Of a DNA stretch of 25,061 nucleotides, positions 3,632 to 8,223 are shown piece by piece. The number at the start of each line of letters is the position of its first letter. Positions within the stretch are counted from its first letter, which is position 1. The position numbers were made by a program, and so were the translations under genes. Under the pieces are notes generated by a model. It made no database searches. It saw nothing but the letters and a program-made list of their open reading frames with translations, and had not been told where the DNA came from. The stretch comes from a virus, in IMG/VR virus record IMGVR_UViG_3300025769_000779, positions 1 through 25,061 of that record; one strand, 5' to 3'.

Positions 3632-4845
3632 CACTATTAAGAAGTTTAATGAACAAGAAGTTCTACGATGATCATCGTGGAGCAAGGTGTCCTAACAGAC
3701 TATTCAGTAAGGATGCACAGAAAGTAAAGTCTGTCATAGACAAGGCTATGCAGAGGTATGAGAGGACAGTAACACCTGATGAAGTAGAAGCATTGTTTGT
3801 GTCAGGTAATCCTAGTATGACTACAGCACAGAAGAATGCGTACATATCTATGTTCAGACAGGTTAAGAAAGAACAACCAATGGGAGATGACATAGCACAA
3901 GAGGTGCTGTCTAAATTGTTTCAGCAGGTTATAGGAGAGGACATAGCTAACTTAGGTTTTGATTATGTCAATGGTGTTCAGAGTTCTTTAGAACCATTGC
4001 GTAATCTATTAGAACAATACAGCGATGACTTCACACCTACCTTGAATATAGAGTGGGATGATATTAGTATAGAGAATTTACTTGACAAGAATGATTTAGA
4101 AGCACGATGGACATTCAACATACCTACACTATGTAGAAAGGTGGAAGGCATTAATGCTGGACATCTGATTGAGGTAGGTGCAAGACCCAACACAGGTAAG
4201 ACATCCTTTCATGCTAGTCTTATAGCAGGTCCGGGTGGGTTTGCAGAGCAAGGTGCTAAGTGTATTATCCTATGTAATGAAGAAGGATATCATAGGGTAG
4301 GTGCAAGGTATCTTACAGCAGGTACAGGTATGAACTTACATGAGGTAAAAAAGAATCTACCAAGAGCGAATGAAATATATGCACCCTTACGTAAGAATAT
4401 ATTTATTAAGGACACGACAGGTCTTGATATGAATTGGGTTGAGTCAGCAGTAAAGAAGTCAGAACCTGATATAGTTGTACTAGATATGGGTGACAAGTTT
4501 GCTACCTACAAAGGTCATGCTAGACCTGACGAAGCTCTCAAAGCCTGTGCCATACATGCTAGACAGATAGCAAAGCAATATAACTGTGCTATATTATATA
4601 TGTCTCAGCTAAGTGCAGAAGCAGAGGGTAAGGTTATACTTAACCAAAGCATGATGGAAGGATCACGTACAGGTAAAGCAGCTGAAGCTGATCTAATGAT
4701 ACTGATAGCTAAGAACCCACAAGTAGAAGGACAAGATGAAGAGGATGCACAAAGACATCTTAACATTGTCAAGAATAAATTATCAGGTTGGCATGGTAGC
4801 GTACACTGTGAGTTAGATTATTTATTAGCTAGGTACACAGCATGA
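3622..4845 (+). CDS. Replicative DNA helicase, DnaB-like (RecA fold)
   Basis: A 407-residue hexameric-type helicase. Residues 1-140 form a helical N-terminal region like that of DnaB (ALLRSLMNKKFYDDH). The RecA-type motor follows. Walker A is GARPNTGKTS (186-195), the catalytic Glu motif is NEE (219-221), Walker B is DIVVLD (283-288), MSQLS (327-331) matches the H3 sensor, and an SR pair (348-349) with GKAAEADLMILI is the H4 region. It would unwind the fork by ATP hydrolysis and act with the adjacent primase. AAGGAG lies just upstream of the ATG inside the primase gene, and the stop overlaps the next ATG (ATGA). It lacks an attached primase, so its architecture is DnaB-like and unlike T7 gp4. 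Confidence 0.92.
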   Translation: MELALLRSLMNKKFYDDHRGARCPNRLFSKDAQKVKSVIDKAMQRYERTVTPDEVEALFVSGNPSMTTAQKNAYISMFRQVKKEQPMGDDIAQEVLSKLFQQVIGEDIANLGFDYVNGVQSSLEPLRNLLEQYSDDFTPTLNIEWDDISIENLLDKNDLEARWTFNIPTLCRKVEGINAGHLIEVGARPNTGKTSFHASLIAGPGGFAEQGAKCIILCNEEGYHRVGARYLTAGTGMNLHEVKKNLPRANEIYAPLRKNIFIKDTTGLDMNWVESAVKKSEPDIVVLDMGDKFATYKGHARPDEALKACAIHARQIAKQYNCAILYMSQLSAEAEGKVILNQSMMEGSRTGKAAEADLMILIAKNPQVEGQDEEDAQRHLNIVKNKLSGWHGSVHCELDYLLARYTA

Positions 4846-5276
4846 GGGATTTATTTGGACATGAAAAGAAAGACATAGAAGTAAGGTATACCTTGGTATG
4901 CATTAAATGCAAGACGACACAGCCTATTGATCAATTCTATTCTATAGACTATGGTAAGGGTAAAGCACCTGAAATAAAAAGAACATGCAGAACATGTGTA
5001 AGAGGGCAGATGACATTGGTTTACCAATTAAAGAAAGAGAACCCATACCCTAAAGAAGATTATAAATGTCCTATATGCGACAGAGGTATTGAGGAGATTG
5101 GTATGTACAACCAACGTAAGTTACAGAAGTGGGTGCTTGACCATGACCATGATAAGGGTACATTCAGAGGTTGGGTATGTCATCATTGTAATGTAGGACT
5201 TGGTGCGTTCAGAGATAACTTGACAAGACTAAAGAAAGCTGTCATATATATGACTAAACATATGGAGAAGCTATGA
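4842..5276 (+). CDS. Endonuclease VII-like Holliday junction resolvase (HNH/zinc)
   Basis: A 144-residue protein matching the recombination endonuclease VII family (T4 gp49 type). Its core is VLDHDHDKGTFRGWVCHHCN (98-117). The Asp-His pair at 100-103 forms the metal site, and the zinc ligands are Cys76, Cys79, Cys113 and Cys116. A separate pair of CxxC motifs at Cys20/Cys23 and Cys49/Cys52 suggests an additional N-terminal zinc ribbon. The enzyme cuts branched DNA such as Holliday junctions and clears replication or packaging intermediates. It sits between helicase and polymerase with ATGA overlaps on both sides, so it is made together with the replisome. A second, unrelated resolvase is encoded at 9058-9513. 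Confidence 0.88.
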   Translation: MRDLFGHEKKDIEVRYTLVCIKCKTTQPIDQFYSIDYGKGKAPEIKRTCRTCVRGQMTLVYQLKKENPYPKEDYKCPICDRGIEEIGMYNQRKLQKWVLDHDHDKGTFRGWVCHHCNVGLGAFRDNLTRLKKAVIYMTKHMEKL

Positions 5277-7297
5277 AAATAACAATTGATGTAGAGAACA
5301 CTGTCCAAACTCGTGATGGTAAGCTACACCTTGACCCCTTTGAGGAGAAGAATGAATTGGTTATGGTGGGTATACTGACTGAGCATGGACAAGAGTATCT
5401 ATATAGAATGAATGAAGAGAATGTATTTAATAAGATACAATCATTACTTGATGAAGCTACAGTATTGATTGGACATAATATTGTACACGACTTGATGTGG
5501 TTATGGGAGTCTAACTTTAAGTATGATGGCGATGTGTTTGACACAATGCTAGGAGAGTATGTCTTACAGGAAGGACAGAAGCAACCTCTATCATTAGAGA
5601 TGTGTGCAGAGAGATATAACCTTGATACAAAGAAACAAGATACATTGAAAGAATACTTTAAGAAGGGCTACAGTGTGGCAGACATACCACCTAATGAGCT
5701 ATCTGAATATCTTTCAGCAGACTTACATGCAACACAGGAGTTAGCAAATGAAATATACAAGAAGTTACATTCACAGGAATACAAACATCTTTTGGACACT
5801 ACTGTTCTTACTAATAGTGTTGCCCTTTGTTTGGCTAGGATATATCGTGTTGGTTTTAGTGTTGATGTTGATGGTCTTGATGAGGTACGTAATCTATTTA
5901 CTCAAGAGAAGAAAGAGATAGAGAAAGAGTTGTACAAAGAGAGTAGTTTCTTTATGGGTGACACACCTATTAATTTAAATAGCCCTGAGCAATTATCTTG
6001 GTTGATATATTCTAGGAAACCTAAAGACAAACATGATTGGGTAATGACATTCAATGCTCACATGCCGAAGCAAGACTTCCGTAGAGAGATAACAAACAAG
6101 GCTGAGATACTTAGGAAGACTAAAGCTATACAGTGTCATGTATGTAATGGACATGGTAGAATTAGAAAGACTAGAAAGAATGGACTACCCTATGCAAATG
6201 AAAACAAATGTGTAGAGTGTAATGCTCTAGGTTATAAGTTCTTACCTACATCTGAGTTAGCAGGTATGGGTTTCACTCCACCTAATGCTAAGTGGGTATC
6301 TGCTAATGGTTTTACTACAAGTAAGACAAGTCTTTTATATTTAAAGTCCGTTGCTAGGCAGAAAGAAATGCATAGAGCAGAGAACTTCTTAGAGAAAGTA
6401 ATTAGATTATCAGCATTAGATAGTTACTTATCTTCATTTGTTGAAGGTATAACATCTAACCTAAAGTCTGACGGAAAGCTACACGTTAGATTATTACAGC
6501 ATCGCACAGCCACAGGTAGGTTTAGTGGAGCAGACCCTAACATGCAGAACATGCCACGAGGTGGTACGTTTCCTGTAAAGAAAGTATTTGTTTCACGATG
6601 GGAAGGTGGTAAGGTGCTTGAAGCTGACTTTGCACAGTTAGAGTTTAGAACTGCTGCATATTTGTCACAAGATCAAGTAGCAATGAAGGAGATAGATAAT
6701 GGATTTGACGTACATAACTACACTGCCAAAGTTATTACTGAGGGTGGTCAGAAGATTAGTAGGCAAGAAGCAAAAGCCCACACGTTCGCCCCACTCTACG
6801 GAGCTACAGGGTTTGGGAGGTCGGTTGCTGAAGCAACGTATTACAAACAGTTCACGCAAAAGTACAAAGGAATCGCATCTTGGCATTCCAGATTGGCTAC
6901 GGAAGCTCTGAATGAAGGTAGGATTACGACACCATCAGGTAGATCATTTGCTTTTCCTGATGTTCAGAGAAGGTTTAATGGTACACCTACTCACTTCACA
7001 CAGATAAAGAACTTTCCTGTACAGAGTTTTGCTACAGCAGATATAGTTCCTATTACTCTGCTAGAGATAGAGAAACAACTGCAAGATATGCAATCCTGTA
7101 TAGTAAATACAGTACACGATAGTATTGTAATAGATGTACACCCTGATGAGATTGATTCAGTACTTGGTGTAATAAGAAATACTAATGATAAATTAAAAAT
7201 ACTTGTTGACAAACAGTTCAAAATAGATTTAAATGTACCATTAGTATTGGAAGCAAAAATAGGTAATAATTGGCTTGACACGAAAGATGTTAGCTGA
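5273..7297 (+). CDS. polA: DNA polymerase I family (family A) with 3'-5' exonuclease
   Basis: A 674-residue replicative polymerase. The proofreading exonuclease is intact: ITIDVEN (Asp6, Glu8), GHNIVHDLMW (Asp73) and YLSAD (Tyr146, Asp150). Polymerase motif A is LEADFAQLEFR (Asp452), motif B is RQEAKAHTFAPLYG (Arg497, Lys501, Phe505, Tyr509) and motif C is VHDS (His615, Asp616). No 5'-3' exonuclease domain is present, as in T7 gp5. Phe505 aligns with Phe762 of E. coli Pol I. Between residues 288 and 316 two CxxC pairs (Cys288/291, Cys313/316) form a zinc-ribbon-like insertion in the thumb. The gene overlaps the resolvase upstream by four bases. Family and activity are certain; the role of the insertion is unknown. 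Confidence 0.96.
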   Translation: MKITIDVENTVQTRDGKLHLDPFEEKNELVMVGILTEHGQEYLYRMNEENVFNKIQSLLDEATVLIGHNIVHDLMWLWESNFKYDGDVFDTMLGEYVLQEGQKQPLSLEMCAERYNLDTKKQDTLKEYFKKGYSVADIPPNELSEYLSADLHATQELANEIYKKLHSQEYKHLLDTTVLTNSVALCLARIYRVGFSVDVDGLDEVRNLFTQEKKEIEKELYKESSFFMGDTPINLNSPEQLSWLIYSRKPKDKHDWVMTFNAHMPKQDFRREITNKAEILRKTKAIQCHVCNGHGRIRKTRKNGLPYANENKCVECNALGYKFLPTSELAGMGFTPPNAKWVSANGFTTSKTSLLYLKSVARQKEMHRAENFLEKVIRLSALDSYLSSFVEGITSNLKSDGKLHVRLLQHRTATGRFSGADPNMQNMPRGGTFPVKKVFVSRWEGGKVLEADFAQLEFRTAAYLSQDQVAMKEIDNGFDVHNYTAKVITEGGQKISRQEAKAHTFAPLYGATGFGRSVAEATYYKQFTQKYKGIASWHSRLATEALNEGRITTPSGRSFAFPDVQRRFNGTPTHFTQIKNFPVQSFATADIVPITLLEIEKQLQDMQSCIVNTVHDSIVIDVHPDEIDSVLGVIRNTNDKLKILVDKQFKIDLNVPLVLEAKIGNNWLDTKDVS

Positions 7298-7335: not shown

Positions 7336-8223
7336 ATGAATATAGATACAAATAACTTTGCTGATATGGCACAGAAGATGGGCATGGGAGTAGACATGAC
7401 ACAAAAGAAACAGACAGCACAACTCGCTCGTCTAAAGATACAACACTCTCCTATTATGGGAGAGGTTGAAGTCAAGGGTAAAAAAACACAGGCTGCTATA
7501 GTCAATAGTGGTTCTTATAAGATAGATGATCTATCCAATGAGAGTGTATTTTACTCTGACGATATTACAATCAGACCTTACGTACAAAGGTTTATGTATA
7601 AGAAGTTTGTAAAGCCTGAATCAGGCAAAGGTTTTTATGTAAAGACTATCATGGCAGACAACTTAAACGTTGACCTCAAAGATAATATGGGTGGTTTTAA
7701 TTGTGGTAAACCTGCAGGATATGTTAAGGATTACCAAGCACTACCCCCAAAAACTAAAGACCTCTTGAAGAGTATCAAGAGAGTGAGGGTACTGATTGGA
7801 ACTCTATCAGCAGGGTCTGTTCTTAATGCTGATGGAAATGATGCAATGGAGATTGCTAACCTACCATTCATATGGGAAGTTGACAACAGAGATGCATTTA
7901 AAATAATGGGAGAACCTATTTCAAAGATTGGAAGTAGGAAGCACCTTCCTGTGCAGTACACAATAGGGTTAGGTTCAGAAGAAAGAAAGTTACCTAATGG
8001 TAATTCATACTACCTTCCGACAGCATCTTTAAACAAAGATATGTTAGACGTAGAGGATGACACACAAGATAACTTTACAAATTTTATGCAGTGGATTGAG
8101 AATTATAATTCTTATATATTCAATGCATGGAATGAGAAAGCTAAACCTACTGACACATTGACTACCTCTGATAGAGATATAGTCAAAGACCTTGTTGACG
8201 TAGACGATGGGATACCTTTTTAG
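7336..8223 (+). CDS. Probable single-stranded DNA-binding protein
   Basis: A 295-residue protein lying between DNA polymerase and exonuclease, the position of an SSB in many phage replication blocks. The body is not recognisable as a standard OB-fold by eye, but the last residues, DVDDGIPF (288-295), closely copy the DDDIPF tip by which bacterial SSBs recruit partner proteins. A stretch rich in Asp and Thr precedes it (residues about 270-290) and resembles the flexible acidic linker. T7 gp2.5 has an analogous acidic, Phe-ended tail. The central part contains conserved-looking basic and aromatic patches (ITIRPYVQRFMYKKF, 75-89). It has a strong ribosome binding site and its own candidate promoter. 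The SSB role is inferred from tail and context; a recombination mediator is the alternative. Confidence 0.68.
   Translation: MNIDTNNFADMAQKMGMGVDMTQKKQTAQLARLKIQHSPIMGEVEVKGKKTQAAIVNSGSYKIDDLSNESVFYSDDITIRPYVQRFMYKKFVKPESGKGFYVKTIMADNLNVDLKDNMGGFNCGKPAGYVKDYQALPPKTKDLLKSIKRVRVLIGTLSAGSVLNADGNDAMEIANLPFIWEVDNRDAFKIMGEPISKIGSRKHLPVQYTIGLGSEERKLPNGNSYYLPTASLNKDMLDVEDDTQDNFTNFMQWIENYNSYIFNAWNEKAKPTDTLTTSDRDIVKDLVDVDDGIPF

Follow-up and report, generated by a model that had tools for sequence, protein, structure and literature searches.

A "partial DnaJ domain" containing two CXXCXGXG motifs has been described as the hallmark of the polymerases of HMO-2011-type phages (PMC6918029, PMC8528129, PMC9038755), and this label has long served to identify a group that ranks among the most abundant marine phages. 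On the location of the domain, the passages of these papers that deal with it say only that the exonuclease and polymerase domains lie on either side, and they offer neither a structure nor a functional test; one of them draws a comparison with the part that DnaJ plays in the replication of lambda (PMC9038755). The GenBank record of HMO-2011 itself annotates the DnaJ central domain, PF00684, in the phage polymerase.

Insertions into the thumb are described for other family A polymerases, namely those of T7, Pol theta and plant organelles, where they contribute to holding DNA, to processivity or to the bypass of lesions (PMC5984650, PMC9962433, PMC7699545). The T7 insertion presents basic residues that hold DNA (PMC5984650) and is reported to bind the tail of the T7 single-stranded DNA-binding protein (SSB; PMC7699545); Insert 1 of Pol theta is described as required for processive synthesis (PMC9962433), and the insertions of plant organellar polymerases as lysine-rich (PMC7699545).

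Here we examine the insertion in one such polymerase, encoded in a 25,061-base virus record of a marine phage (the window), and document its position, conservation, DnaJ-type motif and charge together with a confidently predicted fold. The zinc domain is itself not new, being the published hallmark of the HMO-2011 type, a fact overlooked by the first-pass annotation of this DNA. What we add is its address at the tip of the thumb, a presumed single-site zinc hairpin, a relaxed form of the second motif, an invariant basic tip and an acidic-tailed product of the neighbouring gene. Placement at the thumb tip, the basic hairpin and the acidic-tailed neighbour make the old label testable with respect to processivity and partner binding, and the insert may point to a compact means of raising the processivity of family A polymerases.

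An HMO-2011-type polymerase with an insertion at the thumb tip

The polymerase ORF of the window (Table 1), as called earlier, is confirmed by its translation. Pfam scans locate an exonuclease domain in its N-terminal part (residues 26-165, E=1.2e-8) and DNA_pol_A at residues 364-668 (E=1.4e-51), and alignment with E. coli Pol I equates its catalytic residues D452 and D616 with D705 and D882. The DNA polymerase of phage HMO-2011 is 64% identical to it across 100% of the query; the other nearest named relatives are roseophages CRP-1, -2, -345 and -603, pelagiphage HTVC033P (42% identity) and CRP-3, -235, -212 and -738 (about 36%). We assign the protein to the HMO-2011 type on its combination of a family A polymerase with an exonuclease and its full-length similarity; it shares gene, domain order and paired cysteines with HMO-2011, CRP-1, -2, -3, -603 and -738 and HTVC033P, and the partial DnaJ domain is present between its exonuclease and polymerase domains as a PF00684 match below the curated cut-off. 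The same alignment with Pol I places Phe505 (6785-6787) opposite Phe762, a position used in the ecology of virioplankton polymerases.

Table 1. Positions in the window of the polymerase gene, of the elements of its thumb-tip insertion and of the following gene
Feature	Position	Strand	Basis or remark
Family A DNA polymerase with 3'-5' exonuclease, HMO-2011-type	5273..7297	+	674 aa; Pfam, identity with HMO-2011, fold match
Segment of thumb helix H1, NLNSPEQLSWLIY (residues 234-246), 5' border of the insertion	5972..6010	+	Klenow profile alignment, E. coli PolA alignment, model
Thumb-tip insertion (residues ~249-349)	6017..6319	+	Alignment with E. coli PolA and insert-free StenR_269 and L294
First stalk strand, predicted (residues 281-287)	6113..6133	+	AlphaFold secondary structure
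First putative zinc motif, CHVCNGHG (Cys288, Cys291, Gly293, Gly295)	6134..6157	+	Conservation, PF00684
Basic beta-hairpin, predicted (residues 296-312, RIRKTRKNGLPYANENK)	6158..6208	+	Conservation, charge
Second putative zinc motif, CVECNALG (Cys313, Cys316, Gly320)	6209..6232	+	Degenerate CXXCXGXG, Ala replaces middle Gly
Second stalk strand, predicted (residues 321-329)	6233..6259	+	AlphaFold secondary structure
295-aa SSB-like protein with acidic C-terminal tail DVDDGIPF, candidate hairpin partner	7336..8223	+	Directly after polymerase; tail charge

The first-pass annotation had put a zinc-ribbon-like insertion in the thumb, after the helix marked by NLNSPEQL (residues 234-241). This location is supported by alignments with Klenow and PolA and by an AlphaFold model, built from 73 natural sequences and containing no metal, in which residues 238-246 are helical. 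Since alignment pairs N234, Y246, R248 and S350 with N579, F591, K593 and S610 of E. coli Pol I, the insertion falls in the thumb-tip loop that follows helix H1, between K593 and S610, where about 101 residues stand in place of the 16 residues 594-609 of Pol I (a net difference of about +85). Its core ends near residue 331; the remainder (332-349, MGFTPPNAKWVSANGFTT) is similar to an ordinary tip loop. The model is of good overall quality (mean pLDDT 91, pTM 0.84; insert about 84-93), and its general fold is that of Bst Pol I (TM 0.80 on the target); fold searches with it returned nothing but ordinary family A polymerases. Within the insert the model predicts two strands flanking the hairpin that would, judging from their order, pair as a stalk.

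The site is distinct from that of the thioredoxin-binding insertion of T7 gp5, as had been noted from the sequence: the T7 insertion precedes the FNPSSRDH segment, on the other side of H1, whereas that of the window follows the equivalent helix. Both are thumb insertions with basic residues in phage family A polymerases, but the T7 domain lacks a zinc motif and requires host thioredoxin. Insert 1 of Pol theta and insertions 1-2 of the plant polymerases are to our knowledge unrelated in sequence to the window insert. They are likewise described as family A thumb insertions tied to DNA grip, and the accounts drawn on here describe a zinc motif for neither (PMC9962433, PMC7699545).

Conserved cysteine pairs framing a basic hairpin

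Translation returned Cys288 (codon 6134-6136), Cys291 (6143-6145), Cys313 (6209-6211) and Cys316 (6218-6220), and between the two pairs the loop IRKTRKNGLPY (residues 297-307), at exactly the positions earlier noted. The first reading supposed that a metal-stabilised basic element at the thumb tip could hold DNA and provide processivity with no need of a host factor, a proposal that would fall if the four cysteines were not kept in relatives. We aligned 203 distinct HMO-2011-type polymerases from IMG/VR, GTDB contigs and phage records, reaching down to about 36% identity, and found all four in 201, so that on the side of conservation the proposal holds. Individually, Cys288, Cys291 and Cys316 occur in 203/203 sequences and Cys313 in 201/203, and the associated glycines are nearly as constant (Gly293 and Gly295 each in 202, Gly320 in 201), whereas other cysteines of the polymerase vary (Cys111 in 154/203, Cys186 in 40/203, Cys609 in 130/203). 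The paired pattern is beyond chance, a CxxC-x10-30-CxxC arrangement arising in 1 of 20,000 shuffles of the window protein. Of the 199 sequences that match the pattern, 198 have the same spacing, C-x2-C-x-G-x-G-x17-C-x2-C; in the exception, CRP-738 (L086), x29 replaces x17, and the hairpin, 12 residues longer, is basic all the same (QKFKQVTRQKNGKKYRIQGEPYKN). In two intact polymerases Cys313 is replaced by Asp (L068, 2347-4374, NKDPACNGLG; L123, 2501-4507, NKDPSCNGLG), a residue that could remain a zinc ligand.

The second motif is less uniform than the published description implies. The window has a full CXXCXGXG in its first motif, but its second, CVECNALG, lacks the middle glycine, as against the two CXXCXGXG motifs stated in the passages on the HMO-2011 type cited above. 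This glycine is present in 119 of the 203 relatives, nearly all others having Ala, Ser or Thr; the motif is thus incomplete in about 40% of them, many close to named isolates.

Between the motifs lies the most basic 17-residue stretch of the family (residues 296-312), with a mean net charge of +5.0 and a minimum of +3 over all 203 sequences. Basic residues occupy position 299 in 202 and position 301 in all 203, Lys302 is found in 201, and Gly304 and an aromatic residue at 307 are without exception. These fixed positions stand out because conservation across the entire zinc region lies below the average for the polymerase (means of 0.62 and 0.69 over the 203 relatives).

The "DnaJ-type" label given earlier proved apt. 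PF00684 matches residues 283-321 of the whole window protein below its curated cut-off (E=0.0011; 19.6 bits against 32.7), the insert alone at E=1.9e-5, and, at E<=0.01, 67 of the 73 members of an alignment. When a profile built from the 53-residue insert was compared with solved structures, its top match was to repeats 2-3 of the zinc domain of E. coli DnaJ (1exk, E=6e-5), which has the same succession of CxxCxGxG, hairpin and CxxCxGxG; the second-best PDB match was antitermination protein Q of phage 21 (7ubj, E=0.004). Protein Q, of phage 21 and lambda, is likewise encoded by phages and has a DnaJ-like zinc element, but is a transcription factor. Judged by its sequence pattern and predicted strands, the insert would fit a DnaJ-type zinc knuckle made of two CxxC pairs and a hairpin. 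Whereas DnaJ has four repeats, two zinc sites and a J domain, the insert has two repeats and a basic tip, and one zinc site is therefore expected. An HPD triplet at residues 623-625 was considered and rejected as a J domain, as it occupies a palm position just past the catalytic motif VHDS.

Distribution of the insertion among related polymerases

Among 28 polymerases placed in a tree, the 15 that bear the zinc motif form one clade (support 100/98), and their sisters, StenR_269 and L294, lack both insert and motif; a scan with StenR_269 yielded one relative. The zinc motif is likewise absent from more distant phage polymerases, among them those of MEP402, QDWS535, ICP2-like phages, phiKT and P14, but these carry a basic loop, KxGxxxGxxK[TY]K, after the same thumb helix, H1. 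The loop, for which we have met no name, is shared by the zinc-less polymerases L089, L090, L091 and L317-L322. On sequence grounds the zinc hairpin and this loop are parallel in position and charge. A profile-profile comparison of zinc and zinc-less thumbs aligned only the common H-H1 part, stopping where the insert starts, and common descent of hairpin and loop is therefore unsupported. An AlphaFold model of the N-terminal half of a zinc-less MEP402-like polymerase, built from 13 sequences, was discarded for its low confidence (pLDDT 52).

Some minor observations concern gene organisation. The polymerase is divided between two genes, split before motif A, in several zinc-less relatives (L088, L089, L090, L323), and the ICP2_2006_A record joins two polymerase pieces around a further ORF. 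One contig of 110,914 bases (IMGVR_UViG_3300029448_000003) contains two different HMO-2011-type polymerases (L016, L020) about 59 kb apart, and is probably the result of two phage genomes having been joined during assembly.

Candidate roles and neighbouring genes

The best explanation, to which we give about an even chance, is that the insert forms a zinc-stapled basic hairpin that grips DNA from the tip of the thumb. In the loop that joins thumb helices H1 and H2, a single zinc centre of the DnaJ type would staple a basic beta-hairpin at its base, lengthening the short basic tip loop of Pol I-type enzymes (IKPLKKTPGGAP in the E. coli enzyme) into a rigid finger; the finger would lie along the newly made duplex, on its backbone or minor groove, and its grip would slow dissociation, as for the thumb insertions of other family A polymerases. 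From the position, charge and conservation of the insert, and from the precedents, we infer that it may bind zinc, contact DNA and affect processivity. We count in favour of a DNA grip the near-invariant basic residues at 299, 301 and 302, the fixed x17 spacing, the match to 1exk and the zinc-less basic loops at the same site. Counting against this reading are the two relatives without Cys313 and the fact that the charge of the hairpin could serve protein docking. A large tip element is also dispensable for polymerase activity, as the insert-free StenR_269 and L294 and the short loop of E. coli Pol I indicate. In work by Minnick and others in 1996, a 24-residue deletion at the Klenow thumb tip (590-613) reportedly reduced processivity.

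Docking is the main rival, a reading we regard as unlikely but deserving of serious weight: the hairpin would bind not DNA but a partner in the replisome, chiefly the acidic tail of the SSB-like product of the adjoining gene, or else the phage helicase/primase. In the relatives examined, the gene after the polymerase encodes a protein of 270-313 aa with an acidic end; over 145 distinct proteins the net charge of the final 20 residues averages -6.9, the highest being -1, and the window tail resembles the tip of E. coli SSB. The binding of the T7 SSB tail to the polymerase thumb insertion provides a described precedent (PMC7699545), and by the same precedent DNA grip and docking may both occur. 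Searches with the neighbouring protein of the window gave no Pfam, PHROG or PDB sequence match; it is a candidate phage SSB by virtue of its tail and gene position, a tentative identification that gives docking less force, as does the binding of acidic tails to further polymerase sites.

A broader proposal, doubtful as a whole, would combine the two activities: HMO-2011-type phages would have exchanged an external processivity factor for a zinc-stapled basic hairpin at the thumb tip, alternating between DNA and the SSB-like tail, as a metal-stabilised counterpart of the basic loops of zinc-less phages. If true, a built-in processivity element would belong to phages among the commonest in the ocean. 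Neither a thioredoxin nor a sliding clamp is named in the complete annotation of HMO-2011, which agrees with a built-in factor but is no proof of one, because most of its genes are hypothetical.

Somewhat less probable again is a purely structural role for the zinc element, which would help the enlarged thumb to fold or keep it stable and would have no specific ligand. Over the 203 relatives, conservation is poor in the N-terminal arm of the insert (251-281; mean 0.47) in comparison with the near-invariant cysteines and glycines, as would be expected of a staple that keeps the fold; folding alone would hardly explain the near-invariant Lys and Arg residues at the predicted tip (299, 301, 302).

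Recruitment of a chaperone, or a DnaK/DnaJ-like chaperone activity of the domain, is suggested by the sequence match to the DnaJ central domain and by the published comparison with DnaJ in lambda (PMC9038755), but we consider it very improbable and reject it: Pfam finds no J domain in the window polymerase or in the families matched by its 73-member alignment, the two repeats presume one zinc site, the tip is lysine-rich in place of the DnaJ hairpin QVQMRQGFF, and the domain sits within the thumb of a polymerase. A redox switch, in which the CxxC pairs would tune the polymerase by forming disulphides or as a target of thioredoxin or glutaredoxin, is scarcely credible: CxxC pairs are commonly redox-active and T7 polymerase employs thioredoxin at its thumb, but in its conserved glycines and x17 spacing the insert matches a zinc knuckle, and the change of Cys313 to Asp in two relatives preserves a possible metal ligand and not a disulphide.

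On the other side of the polymerase, between it and the helicase, the window contains a gene for an endonuclease VII (4842-5276, +; Pfam E=1.7e-14). In HMO-2011 and HTVC033P the helicase and polymerase genes overlap directly, so the endonuclease gene of the window looks inserted and is possibly mobile.
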